A stretch of 36,564 nucleotides of DNA from Ignavibacteria bacterium. GTDB taxonomy: Bacteria; Bacteroidota; Ignavibacteria; UBA10030; SZUA-254. The position numbers were made by a program, and so were the translations under genes. The notes under the pieces were generated by a model. That model was not told the DNA's origin and made no database searches. It was given only the letters and a program-made list of their open reading frames with translations. The stretch lies in the NCBI GenBank assembly GCA_016178625.1, contig JACOSX010000034.1, forward strand, positions 1 to 36,564. The letters run 5' to 3'. Below are positions 3,099 to 33,000 of this stretch, piece after piece (within the stretch, counting starts at the first letter, position 1; the number at the start of each line of letters is the position of its first letter).

Positions 3099-4040
3099 AT
3101 GAGTTACGAAGGCGAAATGCTTAAAGACTTGAGAATGCCTCCTCGGAAGGATGTTGAAAAGGCATTACTGGTAACCTTATTTAAACATAATGGCATTATA
3201 AAAGAATTTGGTCCGAGACAAGAAATTGTCGATGAAATTGCAAATGAATTCAGGCTCAATGAGAAGCAGAGAGCGGCGTTTCTACAAACAATTTATCGTA
3301 AAGAAAATAGAGTTAAGAAATCTTTCCTTTGGCATCGTCTTTTGTTTCGTGCAGCCGATTCCTTAGCAAATGAAAAATTAGTTTCGAGACCAACGTCAAC
3401 ACTACAACTCACCAAGAAAAGAGAATGGATGCTCACGGAGAAAGGTTTTGATGAAGCACTAAAGCTTTTACGTATTCCAAATACACAAAAAGAATTCTTA
3501 CCGACAAAATCTTTTGAAGTTCAAAGAGTCATAAAGAAATTAACTGACACACGACGACCAAAAAGTTATAATCCATTTGATAATCAAAAGAAGACTGTAA
3601 AGGTGACGAGGAATTCTATATTAAGAGAAAGAGGCTTTCGCCAAGCTGTCATTGAAGCCTATGATTTCAGATGCGCAGCTTGTGGAATGAAAATTAATTC
3701 ACCCGATTCTTTATATTGGGAAGTCGAAGCTGCCCATATCGTACCCCATCGTCACTATGGCAAGGACGACGTTTGGAACGGACTTTCTCTGTGCCGTTTC
3801 CATCATTGGGCATTTGATGTGGGTTGGTTTGCTCTCCGAACTAACTTCACCATAGAAGTTGCACCAAAAATTAATTCTTTACCTGTTAGTGAGGGGAGAA
3901 TGGGAAACTATGAAGTTTTAAAAAATATATTGAAAAACGATGTAAAGATAATCTTACCAAAACAACCCAACGTATATCCACACGTTAATGCGATTCTGTG
4001 GCATCGGAAGCATATTTTTCATTCTTCAGAAAGGATTTAG
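3099..4040 (+). CDS. HNH endonuclease with Mrr_N-like winged-helix N-terminal domain
   Basis: A 313-residue protein with two parts. Residues about 15-125 resemble the winged-helix N-terminal domain of Mrr-type restriction enzymes, ending in the typical LTEKGFDEA strand-helix. Residues about 180-245 form an HNH/beta-beta-alpha-metal nuclease: C192-x2-C195, the EAAHIVPH motif with H213, N227 in WNGLSLC, and C232-x2-HH (H235/H236) followed by AFD. The family cleaves DNA; many members are stand-alone or modification-dependent restriction enzymes. No methyltransferase gene is adjacent. The DNA is visibly more AT-rich than both neighbours and the codon use differs (many AAA, AAT and ATA codons), suggesting horizontal acquisition. 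Target specificity cannot be read from the sequence. Confidence 0.82.
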   Translation: MSYEGEMLKDLRMPPRKDVEKALLVTLFKHNGIIKEFGPRQEIVDEIANEFRLNEKQRAAFLQTIYRKENRVKKSFLWHRLLFRAADSLANEKLVSRPTSTLQLTKKREWMLTEKGFDEALKLLRIPNTQKEFLPTKSFEVQRVIKKLTDTRRPKSYNPFDNQKKTVKVTRNSILRERGFRQAVIEAYDFRCAACGMKINSPDSLYWEVEAAHIVPHRHYGKDDVWNGLSLCRFHHWAFDVGWFALRTNFTIEVAPKINSLPVSEGRMGNYEVLKNILKNDVKIILPKQPNVYPHVNAILWHRKHIFHSSERI

Positions 4041-4334: not shown

Positions 4335-7175
4335 ATGCTCAGAAAAGCCGCTTTATATTGCTGTCTCTTTTTCCTCTTCCTGACCTCCGCCTCCGCGCAG
4401 TTTTTCTACTTCGGTCGGAACAAAGTCCAGTACACCGATTTCGACTGGCACGTGCTCAAGACCGAGCACTTCGATATCTATTATTATCCTGAGATGCAAG
4501 ACCTCGCTGAGCGCGGTGCATTCTTCGCTGAGGAGAGCTACAAAGCGCTTGAGCAGAAGTTCAACCACAACGTCACCAACCGCGTCCCGCTGATCTTTTA
4601 TAGCTCGCATCTTCACTTCCAGCAAACAAATACAACACCCGGCTTCATCCCCGAAGGTGTCGGCGGGTTCTTTGAGTTCCTCAAAGGTCGTGTCGTCATT
4701 CCGTACAACGGCTCGATGTGGGATTTCCGCCACGTTATCCGGCACGAGCTGGTGCATGTCTTTATGCACAGCAAGATTAATCGCGTGCTGCTGGATCACC
4801 GCATGGCACAGGATCATCTGCCGCCGCTCTGGTTCGTGGAGGGACTTGCGGAGTACTGGTCGAATGACTGGGACATTCAAGCCGAAATGGTGCTGCGCGA
4901 TGCTGTCGTCAGTGGCTACCTTGTACCGTTGAGTGATATCGATCAGATCTTTGGATCATTCTTGATGTACAAGGAGGGACAAAACATCCTGCAGTTCATC
5001 GGAGAGCGACATGGTGAAGAAAAAATCCTCTTGCTCATGGAGAACTTCTGGAAGTCTAGCTCCTTCGACGATATCTTCAAGCTCACCATCGATCGCAGGT
5101 TCAAGGACTTCGACGACGAGTGGACCTACGCTCTGAAGAAAAAATATTATCCGTTGCTTGCATCATCTGATCAGCCGAGCGCGGTCTCCCAGCAGATAAT
5201 CTCTGAAGGGTTTAATTCGAAACCGGTGGTTTATAAGAATGGCGACAAGAAGGAGATCTATTTTATCGGTAACCACACCGGGTACACAAGCATCTTTCAT
5301 GTGCCGTATGGGATGCCGAAGGAAAAGCCGGAGACGGTGATTGAAGGTGAGAAGACGGATGAGTTTGAAGCCTTCCATCTCTTTCAGAGCAAGCTTGATA
5401 TTTCACCGAGCGGTATTCTCGCGTTCGTCACCAAGAGTGGCGAGAACGACGCGCTTCATCTCTACGATCTGAAGAACAATCGCATCGTCGAGACGCTGCG
5501 CTTCAAAGACCTCGTTGTGCTCGGTTCGCCCTCGTGGTCACCTGATGGAAAACGAATCGTCTTTACCGCAGTCGATAAATCAGGCAACAACGATCTGTAC
5601 ATCTGGGATCTCGACAAGACCACCTTGACACGTTTGACCAACGACGTCTATGATGAGCGCGATCCGGAGTGGTCGCCTTCCGGCAGGCAGATTGTCTTCA
5701 GCTCGGATCGCACCCCGTATGGTGAGCGGGGAGTTCACAACTTGTTCGTGTATGATGGTACGACAGGCGAGATCTCGTATCTCACCTACGGCAACGAAAG
5801 TTACTACTCGCCGCGGTATTCTCCGGACGGCCGAGCACTGATGTTTACGTCCGACATCGGTGGCGCGCGCAACGTGTGGATGATGAAATTTGATAGTCTC
5901 GGGTTCTCGAAGGAGATGCGGAAGATTACACAATTCACGACCGCCGCGTTTGACCCGACGTGGGCAGATAGCGATATGGTGTTTGTTGCCTTCGAGAATT
6001 TCAGCTTCCAGATTCGATCAGTGGAAAATGTCTATGCTGTATATGACTCGTCGAACATTGTTCGGCCCATAAACATCCTGGTGACAGAGAAGCCGTGGAA
6101 GCCTCAATCGATCGCAGGTACGCAGGAGGTGAAACCTCTCCGGTACACGGGTGAGTACAGCCTCGATATAGCGCAGAGCCAAATTGCCACCGATCCGGTC
6201 TTTGGAACCGCCGGTGGTGCGTTCCTCGCGTTAAGCGATCTGCTCGGGAATGAGCAGTACAATTTTCTATTGTATAACTCCGCGCAAAGCTCGGATGAAT
6301 TGCTTTCCAGTTTTAACATCGCCATCTCACGCCTTTCGCTGCAACAGCGTACCAACTACGCGTATGGAATCTACCGCTTCAGTGGTAGGCGATACGACTT
6401 GACCGATCCCGATCTCTTTTTCTTCGAACGAGTGTTTGGTGGCTACTTCACCTTGAGTTATCCGATCTCAAAGTTCAGGAGGATCGGTGTCCTCACAAGC
6501 ATCAGTAATTCCGAGAAAGATGCATCGGAGGCGGTGTTCTTCGATTCTCCGGGTGCGAATAATCTCGATCATGCTCGACGGGCTCTGTTTCTCTCGAACT
6601 CTATTTCATTTACCCACGACAATTCTCTCTGGGGACCGAGCGGTCCGCTCGACGGGAACAGGTTCAACATTACACTTGCGTACACAACCGACATCCAATT
6701 CTCGAATGCAAATTACTATTCGATCATTCTCGATTACCGCCATTACTTCCGGATTGCACAGCGTTCCGCGTACGCTACGCGGTTCTGGTTATTCTATAAC
6801 GATGGAAGAGAAGCGCGGCGGTTCTTCATGGGGGGAAGTTGGGATCTTCGAGGATACCCGCGGTGGTCGTTGCGGGGGAAAAAGTTATGGTTGACCAGTC
6901 ATGAGCTTCGCTTTCCGTTCCTCGATCAGCTTGCGATCAGGTTTCCGTTCGGCGGATTGACACTTGTCGGCATCCGAGGCGCGTTGTTCTTCGACGCGGG
7001 GAATGCATGGGATGATCAATACGATCAAACGCGGGGGAGCGTTGGACTTGGCATGCGCCTCAACCTCGGCGGCGTACTGGTGTTGCGCTATGACCTGGGG
7101 AAGCGTATCGAAGACAATTTCACAACCATTCAACAGGGATTGTTCCATCAATTTTTCTTTGGGTGGGATTTCTGA
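4335..7175 (+). CDS. Secreted fusion: gluzincin-type metalloprotease domain, PD40/TolB-like propeller, Omp85-type beta-barrel
   Basis: A 946-residue exported protein. A hydrophobic signal peptide ends near SASA-Q (residues 20-22). Residues about 30-270 resemble a peptidase-MA type gluzincin: HELVH at 137-141 gives the zinc-binding HExxH, and FVEGLAEYW supplies a candidate third ligand (E169 or E173). Residues about 285-590 carry WD40-like PD40 repeats such as PSWSPDGKRIVF, PEWSPSGRQIVF and PRYSPDGRALMF. The remaining ~330 residues look like an Omp85/surface-antigen barrel, with the signature GGSWDLRGYPRWSLRG, the strand HELRFPF and a C-terminal aromatic-rich end (FFFGWDF). Predicted location: outer membrane, with the head in the periplasm or outside. 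The stop codon overlaps the next ATG (TGATG), so translation is coupled to a BamB-like lipoprotein. Substrate unknown. Confidence 0.82.
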   Translation: MLRKAALYCCLFFLFLTSASAQFFYFGRNKVQYTDFDWHVLKTEHFDIYYYPEMQDLAERGAFFAEESYKALEQKFNHNVTNRVPLIFYSSHLHFQQTNTTPGFIPEGVGGFFEFLKGRVVIPYNGSMWDFRHVIRHELVHVFMHSKINRVLLDHRMAQDHLPPLWFVEGLAEYWSNDWDIQAEMVLRDAVVSGYLVPLSDIDQIFGSFLMYKEGQNILQFIGERHGEEKILLLMENFWKSSSFDDIFKLTIDRRFKDFDDEWTYALKKKYYPLLASSDQPSAVSQQIISEGFNSKPVVYKNGDKKEIYFIGNHTGYTSIFHVPYGMPKEKPETVIEGEKTDEFEAFHLFQSKLDISPSGILAFVTKSGENDALHLYDLKNNRIVETLRFKDLVVLGSPSWSPDGKRIVFTAVDKSGNNDLYIWDLDKTTLTRLTNDVYDERDPEWSPSGRQIVFSSDRTPYGERGVHNLFVYDGTTGEISYLTYGNESYYSPRYSPDGRALMFTSDIGGARNVWMMKFDSLGFSKEMRKITQFTTAAFDPTWADSDMVFVAFENFSFQIRSVENVYAVYDSSNIVRPINILVTEKPWKPQSIAGTQEVKPLRYTGEYSLDIAQSQIATDPVFGTAGGAFLALSDLLGNEQYNFLLYNSAQSSDELLSSFNIAISRLSLQQRTNYAYGIYRFSGRRYDLTDPDLFFFERVFGGYFTLSYPISKFRRIGVLTSISNSEKDASEAVFFDSPGANNLDHARRALFLSNSISFTHDNSLWGPSGPLDGNRFNITLAYTTDIQFSNANYYSIILDYRHYFRIAQRSAYATRFWLFYNDGREARRFFMGGSWDLRGYPRWSLRGKKLWLTSHELRFPFLDQLAIRFPFGGLTLVGIRGALFFDAGNAWDDQYDQTRGSVGLGMRLNLGGVLVLRYDLGKRIEDNFTTIQQGLFHQFFFGWDF

Positions 7176-8329
7176 TGAGACGATGTTCACTCTTCGCGAT
7201 GATTATCCTCATGCTCGGCGGAATCGGCTGCAGTTATATCCGTCTTCAGCAATCCCTATCGAGCCGACCAACTGATTGGGTCATGTATGGCGGAAATGCC
7301 GGCAGGCTCAACCTCGCACACGAAGTGCTGCAGCCACCGCTTTCCATGGCGTGGGAGTATGATGCTTCCGCAGGATTCGGGCCATCTTCCGCTGTTGCGG
7401 CTGACAGCTTCCTTTTTGTAGGAAATTTGCAAGGAGAGGTCCACGCCGTTCGCATCAGTGACGGCAAAGGCGCAGGAGTATTTGACTTCGGCTCAGCAAT
7501 TGTCGGAACGCCAGTGCTGGATCGTGATCTCCTCTATGTTGTACTTGCGCATGATGAGGAGAGCGTCATTGCGTATAATTTGCGGTTTGCCTCAATCAAA
7601 TGGAAAGCGAAAATCGGTGACGTGGAATCGTCCCCTCTGATATTAGACAAACGACTTTACGTCACGACCCTCACAGGGAAACTCGTGTGTCTTGAAAAGA
7701 ATGACGGTATGATAGCCTGGACGTACGAGCTTCCATCCCACGTTCGCACACGGATCATCCACTCATCACCTGCCAGCGACAGCACCCTTATCGTATTCGG
7801 TTGCGACAATGGGTCGGTATACGCTGTCGGTGCAAACGATGGAAAATTACGGTGGAGCATCAACACTCGTAAGAGTGTCGTTGCATCGCCTTCGATCTCC
7901 CGGGGAAAGGTCTTTATTGGTTCACTTGACAGTACCCTCTACGCACTTGATGTTTCGACAGGCAAACAACTATGGGCACAACCGCTCGGTGCGAAGATTT
8001 ATTCCTCTCAGGCAGTTGACCACAATCGGGTGTACGTGGGTACGGTAGGGAGAACCATCTACTGCTTGGACGCAGAAAACGGAACCATTATCTGGAAAGT
8101 GAACACGAACGGCGTCATCAACAGTCCACCCCTCATTTCAGGCAACGTCGTATACGTCGGATGCATCGATAAAGTGCTGTACGCGCTCCAGGGAGAAACT
8201 GGTGACGTGCTCTGGCAATTCAGGACGGAAGGACGGATCAAGACGATGCCGATAATCTCAAAAAATTATCTCTTCGTTCTCGCTGAAGATCGATCAGTGA
8301 TTGCATTCACACACTCAGGCGCGCGATGA
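7175..8329 (+). CDS. PQQ-repeat beta-propeller lipoprotein (BamB-like)
   Basis: A 384-residue protein with a lipoprotein signal peptide: MRRCS, a hydrophobic core, and a lipobox LGGIGC with the lipidated cysteine near residue 19. The body is a series of PQQ-like propeller blades, each with a G-x-(V/L)YAL-(D/N)xxTGKxLW pattern, for example SLDSTLYALDVSTGKQLW and DKVLYALQGETGDVLW. It resembles BamB, the propeller lipoprotein that assists BamA in outer-membrane protein insertion. The ATG at 7175 overlaps the upstream stop. A GTG at 7163 is also in frame, but it lies inside the upstream barrel gene and would spoil the signal peptide. Coupling to an Omp85-type barrel argues for a role in envelope assembly; the exact partner is inferred. 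Confidence 0.85.
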   Translation: MRRCSLFAMIILMLGGIGCSYIRLQQSLSSRPTDWVMYGGNAGRLNLAHEVLQPPLSMAWEYDASAGFGPSSAVAADSFLFVGNLQGEVHAVRISDGKGAGVFDFGSAIVGTPVLDRDLLYVVLAHDEESVIAYNLRFASIKWKAKIGDVESSPLILDKRLYVTTLTGKLVCLEKNDGMIAWTYELPSHVRTRIIHSSPASDSTLIVFGCDNGSVYAVGANDGKLRWSINTRKSVVASPSISRGKVFIGSLDSTLYALDVSTGKQLWAQPLGAKIYSSQAVDHNRVYVGTVGRTIYCLDAENGTIIWKVNTNGVINSPPLISGNVVYVGCIDKVLYALQGETGDVLWQFRTEGRIKTMPIISKNYLFVLAEDRSVIAFTHSGAR

Positions 8330-9129
8330 AAGGCATTTCCATCTTCATAGTTCTCCTCGCGATTCTTTCTGATTCGCGGTGTGTTACCGCCTCTACAGAA
8401 GATTCGCGATCCATGTCGCGTGATTCACTACAAGAAGACAATGGATCTCTCACTGTACACTGTGATCTTGCCGGGGTCCAGGTCGTGTTAGATACCATCC
8501 TGCTTGGTGTAGCTCCGCTTAACGGCACCGCAATCTCGGAAGGAGTTCACGTACTGCGCTTCATCCATCCTGAAAGCAAACAGTGGCAGTATTCTGCGCT
8601 GATCGAGACGGTCACCGTTCACCCGACGGAACATTTTGAGCGCACAGTCCATTTTCCGTATTTCTACCACATCACTTCCGAACCTTATGGAGCAACCGTA
8701 CGATTTCATGATTCGATTATTGGCGTAACACCCCTTTATTTCACAGGGTACGTACAGCAGAATTTCGTTTCGCTCTCTAAAGATGGATTTGAAGAGACAA
8801 CCATTCCCTTGTCGGGTGATCCGCGGGAAGTTCATGTTATCCTGAAACCTCTCCGAGGGTTCTCGCGGGATAAATCGTCTGATTACCTGTCGTTCGATCA
8901 ATCGAAGAATCCCGTACCGATCTATATCACGACTGGTGCAACAGTGCTTAGTGGTGTTGCCGCGGCGTACTTCAAAATCAAAGCTGACGGATATTACGAT
9001 GAGTATCGTCGGACATACGATCCGGGAACGCTTGATCAAGTTCATCGGTATGATGTTGTCTCGGGAATTTCGCTCGCGGCAAGCGAAATCAGCCTACTGG
9101 TGCTCACCTATTTGCTTCTCTCGCACTAA
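8326..9129 (+). CDS. PEGA-domain envelope protein with terminal transmembrane segments
   Basis: A 267-residue protein with an N-terminal signal or anchor (MKGISIFIVLLAILS). Two PEGA-type beta-sandwich modules follow: residues about 40-110 (GSLTVHCDLAGVQVVLD ... LGVAPL) and about 115-180 (ITSEPYGATVRFHDSII ... GVTPLYF). This SxPxGAxVxxxxxxxGxTP pattern is the PEGA signature, found in surface-associated proteins. Residues about 203-265 hold two hydrophobic stretches (YITTGATVLSGVAAAYF and ISLAASEISLLVLTYLLL) that could be membrane helices. The ATG overlaps the stop of the BamB-like gene (ATGA), making it the third gene of a coupled envelope operon. Precise function unknown. Confidence 0.75.
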   Translation: MKGISIFIVLLAILSDSRCVTASTEDSRSMSRDSLQEDNGSLTVHCDLAGVQVVLDTILLGVAPLNGTAISEGVHVLRFIHPESKQWQYSALIETVTVHPTEHFERTVHFPYFYHITSEPYGATVRFHDSIIGVTPLYFTGYVQQNFVSLSKDGFEETTIPLSGDPREVHVILKPLRGFSRDKSSDYLSFDQSKNPVPIYITTGATVLSGVAAAYFKIKADGYYDEYRRTYDPGTLDQVHRYDVVSGISLAASEISLLVLTYLLLSH

Positions 9130-11408: not shown

Positions 11409-13682
11409 GTGCGTGTGTGCTGGGTGATGGTGTTGATGAGTTTAGGGGGAATGAGTGCTTCGGCAGGTGTCGGTGAGTGGAAGACGTACACCGCGAAGCG
11501 CGACGTGCGCGATCTTGCCGCAGACACTGAGGGAGTCGTTTGGGTTGCAACGAGTGGCGGGATGTTCTCCTATCGATTTACCGACAGTACCTTTTCAGAA
11601 TATACCACCTCTGATGGCTTACGAACAAACGACCTCACGGCCATTACAACAGATAGCCGGGGAACAATCTGGATCGGTGCAGCAAACGGTTTTATTCACC
11701 GTTATCACCCCAACACAAAAACATGGGAGTACATTGCAGATATTGCTCTTCGCACTGATCCTAACAAACGCATCAACGGATTACAGGCTGTCGGTGATAC
11801 GCTGTTCATTCTCTCCGAGATCGGTGTATCGTTGTACTCCGTCTCTAAGCAAGAGTTCATCGCGACCTACTCGCGCTTCGGTTCTGGACTGAACCAGTTC
11901 ACTGGAAGTATTACCGCATTGAAAATCTTCAATGGGACCCTCTGGGTCGGAACGCGCAACGGTCTTGCGTCGACTCCGATCATCAATCCCAATCCTTCTG
12001 CGCCCGAATCGTGGCAAGTGTACACGACAGCGCGAGGATTACCGTCGAGTAACATCACGGGCATCGAAGTCCTAAATGATATTCTTTACGTTGGAACATC
12101 CGCGGGAGTTGTCTATTATTCTGGATCAGTCTGGAACAGTGTCTCAGGGACTTTAGGGTTGAATATCGAAGACATATCCTATGATCCCGGTTGTCTTCTC
12201 TGTGCTACCGTGATACCACCTACGGTGGCTTTCGTTACATCTTCTGAACTTGGAGCTATTCTCGACACTGATCTCGTTCGCCTTTCCTCGCTCACCCCTC
12301 CTTCAGCTCTCACTTCAATTTCAATCAAGGGTGGTGTAGCGATCGGAACTCAGGCGCATGGCATCATGATTTACGCTGAGACAGCGTTGGTTTCAAAAGC
12401 TCCTCCCGGCCCTCCATCCAACAAATTTGTTAGCATCGCTGTTGACCAACGAGGTGTACTGTGGTCGGGTACAGGGAGATCTAACGGCGATGGTTTCATG
12501 AGTGTTGACGGAAACGTATGGAGGTCATACACTGTCGCCCAAGATGCGCGCTTGAGATCCAATGATTATTACAAGGTCAGCATCGGGAAAGACAATGCGA
12601 AGTGGGTGAGCAGTTGGGGTAGTGGTATCGCACTGCTGGATGATGGCGGAACGGTTCGCAGAGTCTTCAATACCACCAATGGCTTGCCGCCGACTGCAGC
12701 TCAAGGTGATCCATTCATCGTTGTGGGCGGCATTGCGACTGACCAGGATGGTGTCACCTGGATAACGAACCGTACAGGTCTCGGCGACACGGCACTCACC
12801 AAATTTTATTCGGATTCATCATTGCGTTATGTTGTTGGGTTACCGATGAGAAATCCGGCAAATGTTTTCACCGATGTGGTTATTGATAACTACGGAACCA
12901 AATGGTTTGCCAACTCCAGTCGGTTCGAGCCTGAGCCGCCGATCGGTTTTTTTTACTATAATGAGCGTTTTGCTCTACCAGGTACGGTCAACGGTTGGGG
13001 GAAACTCACTGCGTCAGATGGATTAACAAGCAATCAGGTCAAGTCAGTCGCGGTCGATCATGATGGCGACGTGTGGGTTGGTTCTGAGCAAGGGATCTCC
13101 ATTATCCTCAATCCGCGAAGTCCCCGTAGTCAGATTGCATCATATCATCCACTGCGAGACCAAATTATCCAAGAAATCGTGGTTGACGCGCTGAACAATA
13201 AATGGGTGGCGACCAAACAAGGTGTCTTCGTGCTCTCCTCCGACGGAACATCCATCCTTGACCAGTATACTGTGGGGAACACCGCAGGGAAATTGCTTGA
13301 TGATGATGTTGCCTCTATTGCCATTAACCACAGTAACGGCACAGTCTATTTCGGGACTGAGAAAGGTCTTTCTAGTGTCACAACTTCTTCGGTGACGCCA
13401 AATCGATCGTTCAATGGGCTCACATTTGCTCCGAACCCATATTATCTTCCCTCCTTAGTCCCATTGAGCGTCAGCGGATTGGTTGCCGGATCGTCGCTGA
13501 AGATCCTATCGATTGATGGGAATCTCGTGAAAGAGATTCGAACGCCGGGTGGAAGAGTCGGCTTCTGGGATGGTAGGAATGAAAAAGGTGATCTCGTCGC
13601 AACTGCCGTCTATCTGGTAGTTGCGTTTTCAGAGGATGGGAGTAAAGTTGCCACAGGGAAGGTTGCCGTTGTGCGACGGTGA
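11409..13682 (+). CDS. PorZ-like two-propeller secreted protein with type IX secretion-like C-terminal domain
   Basis: A 757-residue exported protein with a signal peptide (MRVCWVMVLMSLGGMSASA). About ten two-component-regulator-type propeller repeats follow, each reading roughly V-x-x-I-A-x-D-xx-G-x-x-W-V-G-T-xx-G, for instance TAITTDSRGTIWIGAANG and KSVAVDHDGDVWVGSEQG. The first ~130 residues (GEWKTYTAKRDVRDLA, GGMFSYRF, ISDIA-like turns) resemble the N-terminal propeller of PorZ, part of the type IX secretion attachment complex, and the length also fits. The last ~85 residues (FAPNPYYLP ... WDGRNEKGDLVATAVYLV ... VATGKVAVVRR) form a beta-sandwich of the T9SS/FlgD-like sorting type. It starts with GTG 25 bases after ribH. 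A generic T9SS cargo protein is the alternative. Confidence 0.7.
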   Translation: MRVCWVMVLMSLGGMSASAGVGEWKTYTAKRDVRDLAADTEGVVWVATSGGMFSYRFTDSTFSEYTTSDGLRTNDLTAITTDSRGTIWIGAANGFIHRYHPNTKTWEYIADIALRTDPNKRINGLQAVGDTLFILSEIGVSLYSVSKQEFIATYSRFGSGLNQFTGSITALKIFNGTLWVGTRNGLASTPIINPNPSAPESWQVYTTARGLPSSNITGIEVLNDILYVGTSAGVVYYSGSVWNSVSGTLGLNIEDISYDPGCLLCATVIPPTVAFVTSSELGAILDTDLVRLSSLTPPSALTSISIKGGVAIGTQAHGIMIYAETALVSKAPPGPPSNKFVSIAVDQRGVLWSGTGRSNGDGFMSVDGNVWRSYTVAQDARLRSNDYYKVSIGKDNAKWVSSWGSGIALLDDGGTVRRVFNTTNGLPPTAAQGDPFIVVGGIATDQDGVTWITNRTGLGDTALTKFYSDSSLRYVVGLPMRNPANVFTDVVIDNYGTKWFANSSRFEPEPPIGFFYYNERFALPGTVNGWGKLTASDGLTSNQVKSVAVDHDGDVWVGSEQGISIILNPRSPRSQIASYHPLRDQIIQEIVVDALNNKWVATKQGVFVLSSDGTSILDQYTVGNTAGKLLDDDVASIAINHSNGTVYFGTEKGLSSVTTSSVTPNRSFNGLTFAPNPYYLPSLVPLSVSGLVAGSSLKILSIDGNLVKEIRTPGGRVGFWDGRNEKGDLVATAVYLVVAFSEDGSKVATGKVAVVRR

Positions 13683-23191: not shown

Positions 23192-24517
23192 ATGAAATTC
23201 ATTGCCCTCAATAGCATTCTATTTTGCTGCTGCTTCTCTTACATCCGAAGTCAAGAATCTCTACGCATATCGTCCACTGGAACGGATTCAGTTATCGTTG
23301 TTGACAGAGTAATCCTCATCGGGAATTCCCATACGAAAGACTTCGTGATAACTCGTGAGATGACCTTACGTCCCGGTACACCTATTACCACTGAGTTGCT
23401 GCAATATGATCAAGATCGTATCTACAGCCTGAGGCTCTTCAATCAAGTCCAGCTCCGCGTGATTCCATCGTCACCGGGCATGGCAGACCTGATCGTCGAA
23501 GTAAACGAGCGATGGTATGTTTTCCCCTTTCCGATCTTTGGGATCAGAGACAGGGATTGGGCGAAGATTTACTATGGGGTTGGCTTGCTTCACTCTAATT
23601 TTCGCGGCCGCAACGAAAAACTCTATACGACAGTAGTGTTCGGTTACGATCCCTCGTTTGGTCTTGCATACAGGAATCCGTTTCTCAGCGAGGAGGGGAT
23701 GTATATTCTCGACTCACGGCTCACATACAACAAAGTTCGGAACAAGAGCATACAAGCTCAAGCGGGACTAGAAAATTTTGACGAGCGCCATTTCTCTATC
23801 TCACTCAGTATCGGAAGGAGGTTTAGCATCGAACACACCGTATGGCTGAGTGCTGGATATGAAATCGTTGATATTTCAGATTATGTTCCTGTCAGGACAC
23901 TTTCTCCCACTGGTAAAGACATATTCCCTGTTCTTGGAATAGGGTACACCTACGATTCACGCGATCTGCTGGATTACCCAGGCGCGGGAACATTGGTCCA
24001 AGGGTCAATAACAAAGGTCGGCATGCCTAACAATGATGTTGACCTCGTCCGTTACGGCATTGACCTCCGACGATATACTCCTTTTCTGGGAACCTTCGTG
24101 TTGGCAAACCGGATTTTCACTAATGTCGTCGCTGGTGGAAAAACGCCGAGTTACAATCGGACATATTTTGGATACGGTGAACGCATCCGCGGTCATTTCA
24201 AAGAGGTTGTCGAGGGTGAAAATATTTTCGGCGTGTCATCCGAGTTGCACTATATATTATTATCGCCTATTTATTTCAACGTCAATTTCTTACCGTCGGA
24301 GTTTGGTGTGTGGAAGTTTGGCATCATCGCCGCAGCATTTGGTGATGCTGGGACTGTATGGTTTCGTGGTATGCCATTCGCGCTTAATGCCTTTCTGAGA
24401 GGATACGGCGTTGGAATCCATTTCCTGTTGCCATATAGCGCGGTCCTCCGAACCGAGTATGGCTGGAACGAGGTGCGACGTGGTGAATTCATCGTCGATA
24501 TCGGGACTGCTTTTTAA
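23192..24517 (+). CDS. Short Omp85-family outer-membrane protein with one POTRA domain
   Basis: A 441-residue exported protein. The signal peptide is MKFIALNSILFCCCFSYIRS. Residues about 30-110 form a single POTRA-like domain (VDRVILIGNSHTKDFVITREMTL, LFNQVQLRVIPS, ADLIVEVNERW), and the rest is a barrel with Omp85 features such as LGIGYTYDSRDLLDYPGAGT, YGERIRGHFKEVV and the C-terminal strand GEFIVDIGTAF. Full BamA has five POTRA repeats and TamA has three, so this is a reduced member, more like the minimal BamA-type surface antigens of the FCB group. The gene sits between the CoA-binding gene and rsmE in the same direction. Function, whether assembly, transport or adhesion, is unresolved. Confidence 0.82.
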   Translation: MKFIALNSILFCCCFSYIRSQESLRISSTGTDSVIVVDRVILIGNSHTKDFVITREMTLRPGTPITTELLQYDQDRIYSLRLFNQVQLRVIPSSPGMADLIVEVNERWYVFPFPIFGIRDRDWAKIYYGVGLLHSNFRGRNEKLYTTVVFGYDPSFGLAYRNPFLSEEGMYILDSRLTYNKVRNKSIQAQAGLENFDERHFSISLSIGRRFSIEHTVWLSAGYEIVDISDYVPVRTLSPTGKDIFPVLGIGYTYDSRDLLDYPGAGTLVQGSITKVGMPNNDVDLVRYGIDLRRYTPFLGTFVLANRIFTNVVAGGKTPSYNRTYFGYGERIRGHFKEVVEGENIFGVSSELHYILLSPIYFNVNFLPSEFGVWKFGIIAAAFGDAGTVWFRGMPFALNAFLRGYGVGIHFLLPYSAVLRTEYGWNEVRRGEFIVDIGTAF

Positions 24518-31845: not shown

Positions 31846-33000
31846 CTATTTTGAGGAAATTTGCCGGACGATTGAATCTGAGAGCTTCGGCAGGTTACTA
31901 TCTTGGCCTATGAGGTTGATGTACTTTTGGAAGAAATCGGCAGGATCGCGAGCGATCGATTCGATGAGGGCAGCCCTTCCCATACGAAGATCAATCTCAC
32001 GAGCAATGAACATGCCTGTCATCGCACCGTAACTTTCCCAGTACCCGCTGAGGTTAGCAGTTCGGATCAACTCACCGGCGCGTCGAGGAGTGAGAGTCGG
32101 AGAAAGAAGCTCTGAAGCATTTTTATTGAAGGTTGAAAAGACCTCGCGTGTTCTGTTGAACCAGTCGCGAGGTAGATATCCTTGACCTCTTTGATCGAGT
32201 GAAAGGTAGTACGCGATGCCTTCGTTCTGCGTCAGATCAAGGAGTTCATCGAAAGGAGTTTGATGCTTACCGGAATAGCGGTTCCATGATGAAGAGGTTG
32301 CCTTGTACGCACCAAACGCAGCATGGAAGACTTCATGAGCAACCACCCCCAGCAACGAGACAAAGCGTTCCTCAAGATCCAGTCCATAATCGACGGCGTG
32401 AGACAGATTGATGACGATTGTGAGCTCACCTTCGTTCTCGCCGACGAACTGCGGTGTGTCTCCGTGCCAAACGATACGCCGGACGAATGCGTCGACGTTT
32501 TCGTGCCCGAGTGTAACAACGTAGACGGGGATAGTAACATCGATCTCTGCATCGGAAGGGAAAATCTGTTCGACGGTTGCAATAACACGGCGATTGAAGT
32601 TCCGTTTCTTCATCTCATCGAGCAACTGTTTGATTCCTGTAACGTTGTCTCGAGCCTTTTCGAGGTGATAGATGTCATCCTTGACGACCTGATGGTACTT
32701 GATGGAATCGAGATAGCTGCGCAATTGGGCAGCAATGACATCTCGATCGGCAATCAAGCCAGTCGTTGACGCGGCAATGCGATTTCCCCTCAACTCAGTG
32801 AGCGCATCAATGTTGACGAGCTCTCCGTCCAACAAGGCGACACATTGTTCGGCGGCTGAGTAGTCGAAGAGAAGGCTAACATTGAATTTGGGATGCGTTT
32901 GAGCGGATGATATCGAGTTGAAGCAGTGAAGTGTTACAGTTATCAGGGCAGCCGCCAGGACGAAGCGCCACTCGCTGATTCGTCCGTTGTTGGTTACCAT
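31846..33000 (-). CDS. Secreted gluzincin-like zinc metalloprotease (DUF5700/DUF2268-like)
   Basis: A 384-residue exported protein with a signal peptide after a short polar start (FVLAAALITVTLHCFNSISSAQ). The zinc motif is HEVFH at residues 222-226 in VVAHEVFHAAFGAYK, and NEGIAYYLS (E260) provides the probable third ligand; together they resemble the uncharacterised DUF5700/DUF2268 peptidase group. Residues before 200 form a helical prodomain-like region. It overlaps the doxX stop by seven bases (ATGGTAA), so the two are translationally coupled. The substrate is unknown. This is the second exported HExxH protein in the window, after the fusion at 4335. Confidence 0.8.
   Translation of the reverse strand: MVTNNGRISEWRFVLAAALITVTLHCFNSISSAQTHPKFNVSLLFDYSAAEQCVALLDGELVNIDALTELRGNRIAASTTGLIADRDVIAAQLRSYLDSIKYHQVVKDDIYHLEKARDNVTGIKQLLDEMKKRNFNRRVIATVEQIFPSDAEIDVTIPVYVVTLGHENVDAFVRRIVWHGDTPQFVGENEGELTIVINLSHAVDYGLDLEERFVSLLGVVAHEVFHAAFGAYKATSSSWNRYSGKHQTPFDELLDLTQNEGIAYYLSLDQRGQGYLPRDWFNRTREVFSTFNKNASELLSPTLTPRRAGELIRTANLSGYWESYGAMTGMFIAREIDLRMGRAALIESIARDPADFFQKYINLIGQDSNLPKLSDSIVRQISSK

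Follow-up and report, generated by a model that had tools for sequence, protein, structure and literature searches.

A contig assigned to an Ignavibacteria bacterium (JACOSX010000034.1; the whole 36,564 nt stretch analysed is referred to here as the window) carries an open reading frame that appears to join a peptidase-like head, a propeller and an outer-membrane barrel in one chain. This raises the question of whether such a combination represents a genuine and maintained protein architecture and, if so, what it would do at the outer membrane.

Architecture and predicted metal site of the fusion protein

The gene occupies nt 4335–7175 of the plus strand, as do all features described below unless stated otherwise, and specifies a protein of 946 aa that was delimited using the full-length ORF, profile searches, alignment and an AF2 model. 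Residues 1–21 (nt 4335–4397) were judged by eye from the sequence to be a signal peptide (LTSASA/QF), and the predicted first mature residue, Q22, is conserved in at least 97% of the aligned short-form homologues (see below). A Peptidase_MA (gluzincin-like) head follows (residues 22–275, nt 4398–5159), assigned from PF13485 matches in relatives and from gluzincin matches in the PDB, and then a TolB-like PD40 beta-propeller (residues 276–560, nt 5160–6014), assigned from PF07676, TIGR02800 and TolB structures. The Omp85-type, 16-stranded beta-barrel (residues 606–946, nt 6150–7172) was placed by PF01103, the AF2 strands and structural matches to BamA, and its aromatic terminus (QFFFGWDF) ends the ORF. 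A local fusion artefact or frameshift was considered and rejected, as the frame is open over its full length in dozens of genomes.

The propeller matches PD40 (PF07676) at E = 6e-21, above the Pfam cut-off, and TIGR02800 (TolB) at 4e-31 by NCBIfam, while the barrel scores 46 bits against PF01103 (cut-off 24, E = 5e-12). The full-length AF2 model, built on a 14-sequence alignment (pLDDT 75, pTM 0.72), falls into three blocks, with helices in the head, only beta structure in the propeller and 16 strands at the C-terminus. Foldseek comparison with the PDB linked the propeller to TolB and the barrel to BamA (4k3c, 3e-8; 6qgw, 9e-8), and the strands are predicted to form a BamA-like barrel. The three-part fusion of gluzincin-like head, TolB-like propeller and Omp85 barrel proposed in the initial annotation is, therefore, borne out by Pfam, the AF2 blocks and Foldseek. 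A search of solved structures with the full protein also recovered the TolB propeller; matches to triosephosphate isomerase and CapE in the same search were dismissed as chance.

Both Omp85 signatures are kept in the barrel. The loop-6 RGF/Y motif is present as R839-G840-Y841 (nt 6849–6857; R839 100% and G840 99% conserved), and the FxDxG motif as F885-F-D887-A-G889 (nt 6987–7001; D887 at least 97% conserved), so that conservation of R839 and D887 lies at 97–100%. The FxDxG motif is the usual partner of the loop-6 arginine. Classical members of the Omp85 superfamily carry one or more N-terminal POTRA domains. None was matched in the fusion by Pfam up to E = 1, in agreement with the earlier suggestion that protease and propeller take their place, and the linker between propeller and barrel (residues 561–605) is short and poorly conserved.

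The profile PF13485 (Peptidase_MA_2; Pfam cut-off 32.4 bits) scores 29.6 bits against the whole fusion protein, 32.3 bits against the head alone and 32.7 bits in a whole-genome frame search. Every one of the 14 relatives aligned over the head matches this family, and the long paralogue does so with 53 bits, clearly above the cut-off. Searching PDB sequences with a profile of the head gave no match. With a head-only model (pLDDT 80), the top 50 structural matches in the PDB were all gluzincin-type peptidases or contained a relative of them. They comprised M1 aminopeptidases, the peptidase domains of M9 collagenases, and M61 or related gluzincins, together with an Akkermansia metallopeptidase and a TFIID complex, the last presumably through its M1-like TAF2. 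The E-values are weak (best, 2.5e-3) and the class is consistent. Within the short set, mean column identity is highest in the head (0.70), followed by the barrel (0.64) and the propeller (0.54).

The HELVH motif (residues 137–141, nt 4743–4757) and the two glutamates, E169 and E173, of the segment WFVEGLAE (W166 to E173, nt 4830–4853) are located where the initial annotation had placed them. H137 and H141 are the presumed zinc ligands, E138 the presumed catalytic base, and E169, 28 residues past H141, the presumed third ligand. Conservation was examined in 78 homologues, comprising 56 sequences of the short set and 22 of the long set. H137, E138, H141, W166, E169, G170, E173, D189 and Y212 are identical in all 78, no homologue having lost the HExxH residues, and this rejects a chance occurrence of the motif. 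The spacing between the zinc ligands His527 and Glu555 of collagenase G is, we take it, equal to that between H141 and E169; Glu555, His523 and Tyr599 are located at the active site of that enzyme. By sequence and predicted structure, the head is of Peptidase_MA type and gluzincin-like, and may bind zinc and cleave proteins.

Homologues and the BamB-like neighbour

A phylogenetic tree separates the homologues into a short clade of about 945 aa, to which the window protein belongs, and a long clade of about 1070–1130 aa, with SH-aLRT values of 100 and 99. Each clade spans many families, and the sequences identify the two forms as ancient clades. One KSB1 member (L011) belongs to the short set by score yet is placed with the long clade in the tree. 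At a threshold of 1e-20, matches were found in 212 of the 296 sampled genomes of the window's phylum, the weakest of them probably being matches to the propeller only. Relatives outside the phylum occur in Neomarinimicrobiota, Calditrichota and KSB1. The window's own genome also carries a third, distant paralogue on contig C59 (L107:6434-9586), with a HEFTH head that has a longer insert, a PD40 propeller and weak similarity to the barrel; it lies in a gene cluster that also contains porV and an inactivated, T9SS-dependent M6 metalloprotease.

The stop codon of the fusion gene overlaps the start codon of the next gene (TGATG, nt 7173–7177), and the two are thereby coupled. The second gene (nt 7175–8329, from the ATG at 7175; a GTG at 7163 is also possible) codes for a PQQ_2 propeller protein (PF13360, TIGR03300); no other PF13360 protein was found in the genome. 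Its product matches the BamB model TIGR03300 at 4e-52 with 177 bits, below the equivalog cut-off of 285, and is by this measure BamB-like and not BamB proper. It is also a predicted lipoprotein. A cysteine follows the N-terminal hydrophobic stretch in every downstream protein read, and 37 of 43 rows match a lipobox-like pattern; in the window's protein the lipobox (GIGC) is atypical.

Of 46 short-form loci, 41 have a BamB-like gene downstream, against none of 10 long-form loci, where long-form loci were counted if at least 3.3 kb had been read, L011 was taken as a long form and duplicate loci were counted once. The five short-form loci lacking the gene (L007, L036, L039, L040 and L054) fall in two groups of the tree, suggesting two independent losses, and show that the neighbour is not strictly required. 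In relatives at the order level, the PF13360 match directly adjoining the fusion is usually the best or close to the best, and one genome in which no short form was found (G120) has only a weak PF13360 match. This neighbour, overlooked in the initial annotation, is the best clue to the function of the fusion.

The overlapping run continues with a third gene (nt 8326–9129) for a PEGA-domain protein, seen at this place only in close relatives. A homologue of PorZ, a type IX secretion protein (window 11409–13682; NF052228, 282 bits, above the cut-off of 260), shares a co-directional block with the fusion and is syntenic in close relatives. The window also encodes a second Omp85 protein (23192–24517) of 441 aa with one detected POTRA and a barrel, and, on the minus strand, a DUF5700 protein that is a putative zinc-dependent peptidase (31846–33000). 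Between the PGI and fusion genes is an HNH_2 nuclease gene (3099–4040); the relatives compared gave no HNH match at the corresponding position, and the gene may, therefore, be a recent insertion. Other Omp85 proteins of the genome give better matches, so the fusion is an additional one.

A possible role at the outer membrane

The interpretation we prefer, with a probability of about one half, is that the fusion is a periplasm-facing factor in outer-membrane protein assembly or quality control, one that carries its own metallopeptidase and has a BamB-like partner dedicated to it. It starts from the domain architecture, metal-site conservation, two clades and conserved coupling to a lipoprotein homologue of BamB observed here, and from these we infer zinc binding, proteolysis, periplasmic topology, a physical complex and a class of clients. 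The barrel would lie in the outer membrane, with the TolB-like propeller and the gluzincin-type head facing the periplasm in the position of BamA's POTRA domains. Together with the co-encoded lipoprotein, it may make up a complex devoted to assembly or quality control that exists alongside canonical BamA, and within which both propellers would bring client polypeptides to the barrel or keep them there. Cleavage by the head would affect clients that have stalled, the kind on which BepA acts at BAM, or clients that require maturation. The weak E-values of the structural matches to the head, and the score of the neighbour below the BamB equivalog cut-off, count against this reading, and PQQ_2 propellers serve many roles.

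If the head does not cleave, the fusion might still assemble outer-membrane proteins, the head being a pseudopeptidase that binds clients or serves as a structural stand-in for POTRA domains. To date, the characterised Omp85 proteins are mainly ones that insert or translocate proteins, the BamB-like coupling fits a scaffold, and a TFIID complex, presumably matched through the non-peptidase TAF2, is among the structural neighbours of the head. However, pseudoenzymes normally lose some of the ligand, base or flanking-motif residues, and in the fusion all of these are 100% conserved over two ancient clades, making a non-cleaving head unlikely. A doubtful proposal is that the fusion is a maturation or export device for surface proteins, the barrel passing or docking cargo (e.g., of the type IX or a surface-lipoprotein pathway) and the head processing it during export. 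A porZ gene scoring above its cut-off (282 bits) belongs to the conserved surroundings of the fusion gene in close relatives, and the distant head-propeller paralogue lies near porV, but the porZ synteny also takes in unrelated housekeeping genes. Furthermore, SprA, the type IX core protein, occurs in many families (e.g., f28, f25 and f35) with no fusion match or with one at the propeller level only. The frequent presence of SprA in the absence of a full fusion weakens the case for a type IX role, and an obligatory link to the T9SS was rejected on the same grounds.

By convention, the N-terminal domain of an Omp85 protein is on the periplasmic side. Both this convention and the precedent of PlpD, whose enzyme domain stays periplasmic although fused to an Omp85 barrel (PMC11116518), argue for the same topology in the fusion, and make it unlikely that the head processes substrates at the barrel mouth, as had been suggested initially. 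A further rival follows the early type Vd proposal for PlpD: the peptidase-propeller part would be a passenger that the barrel carries to the cell surface. A single polypeptide with an N-terminal enzyme and an Omp85 barrel fits this proposal, but the enzyme domain of PlpD itself turned out to be periplasmic (PMC11116518), some 540 residues of head and propeller with a conserved fold would be a poor passenger, and a coupled BamB-like lipoprotein argues for a location on the periplasmic side. Surface delivery is, accordingly, quite improbable.

The preferred assembly or quality-control reading can be extended, tentatively, to a second BAM-like machine. One chain, carrying a metallopeptidase and a propeller on an Omp85 barrel, would act with its dedicated BamB-like lipoprotein to couple outer-membrane protein insertion or export to proteolysis, and the machine would occur widely on the Ignavibacteria side of the phylum, as well as in some neighbouring phyla.

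Comparison with known Omp85 systems

The propeller-plus-barrel part of the fusion belongs to the WD40-Omp85 subfamily, one of ten Omp85 subfamilies named by Heinz and Lithgow in 2014 (PMC4104836). The main text of that paper describes it as POTRA-less, proposes an analogy with a BamA–BamB fusion, and notes Omp85 diversity in Bacteroidetes/Chlorobi and Ignavibacteria. The C-terminal Omp85 barrel, the TolB-like propeller directly N-terminal to it and the lack of POTRA domains are common to the subfamily and the fusion, whereas no peptidase head, two-clade split or BamB-like neighbour is described in the same main text (PMC4104836). Three elements go beyond the subfamily as presented there: an invariant peptidase head, a division into two ancient clades, and a coupling to a BamB-like lipoprotein that is specific to the short form. 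In the literature searched, no paper on the peptidase-propeller-barrel combination was found. As far as the literature searched shows, WD40-Omp85 proteins have been without known function since they were named, and the invariant peptidase site and coupled lipoprotein make that function directly testable.

Another Omp85 subfamily carries the domain PF00149, which we take to be a metallophosphoesterase family and not a HExxH peptidase. This 'Metallo' subfamily is described in the main text of PMC4104836 as Omp85 with a metalloprotease domain, PF00149, a domain different from the head of the fusion. For the topology of the fusion, the closest experimental precedent is PlpD, a patatin-Omp85 protein, in which an enzyme domain likewise lies N-terminal to an Omp85 barrel and has been shown to be periplasmic; unlike the fusion, PlpD has a patatin lipase and POTRA, with no propeller and no metallopeptidase (PMC11116518).

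For a metallopeptidase acting at BAM, the closest precedent is BepA, which acts on stalled clients there (PMC13067283). In E. coli, BamA–BamB and BepA bring together an Omp85 barrel, a BamB-type propeller lipoprotein and a metallopeptidase, as the fusion and its partner may do. The E. coli components are separate proteins, BamA has POTRA domains and BepA is of family M48, not Peptidase_MA, whereas in the fusion the peptidase and a second propeller are joined to the barrel. Three M48 peptidases are present in the window's genome, so the BepA niche may already be filled and a simple replacement of BepA is not implied. If the assembly or quality-control reading is correct, a single chain would both build or export outer-membrane proteins and cut them, and an Omp85 protein would have BamB-like partners outside the Proteobacteria, the group in which BamB arose according to a 2026 review (PMC13067283).
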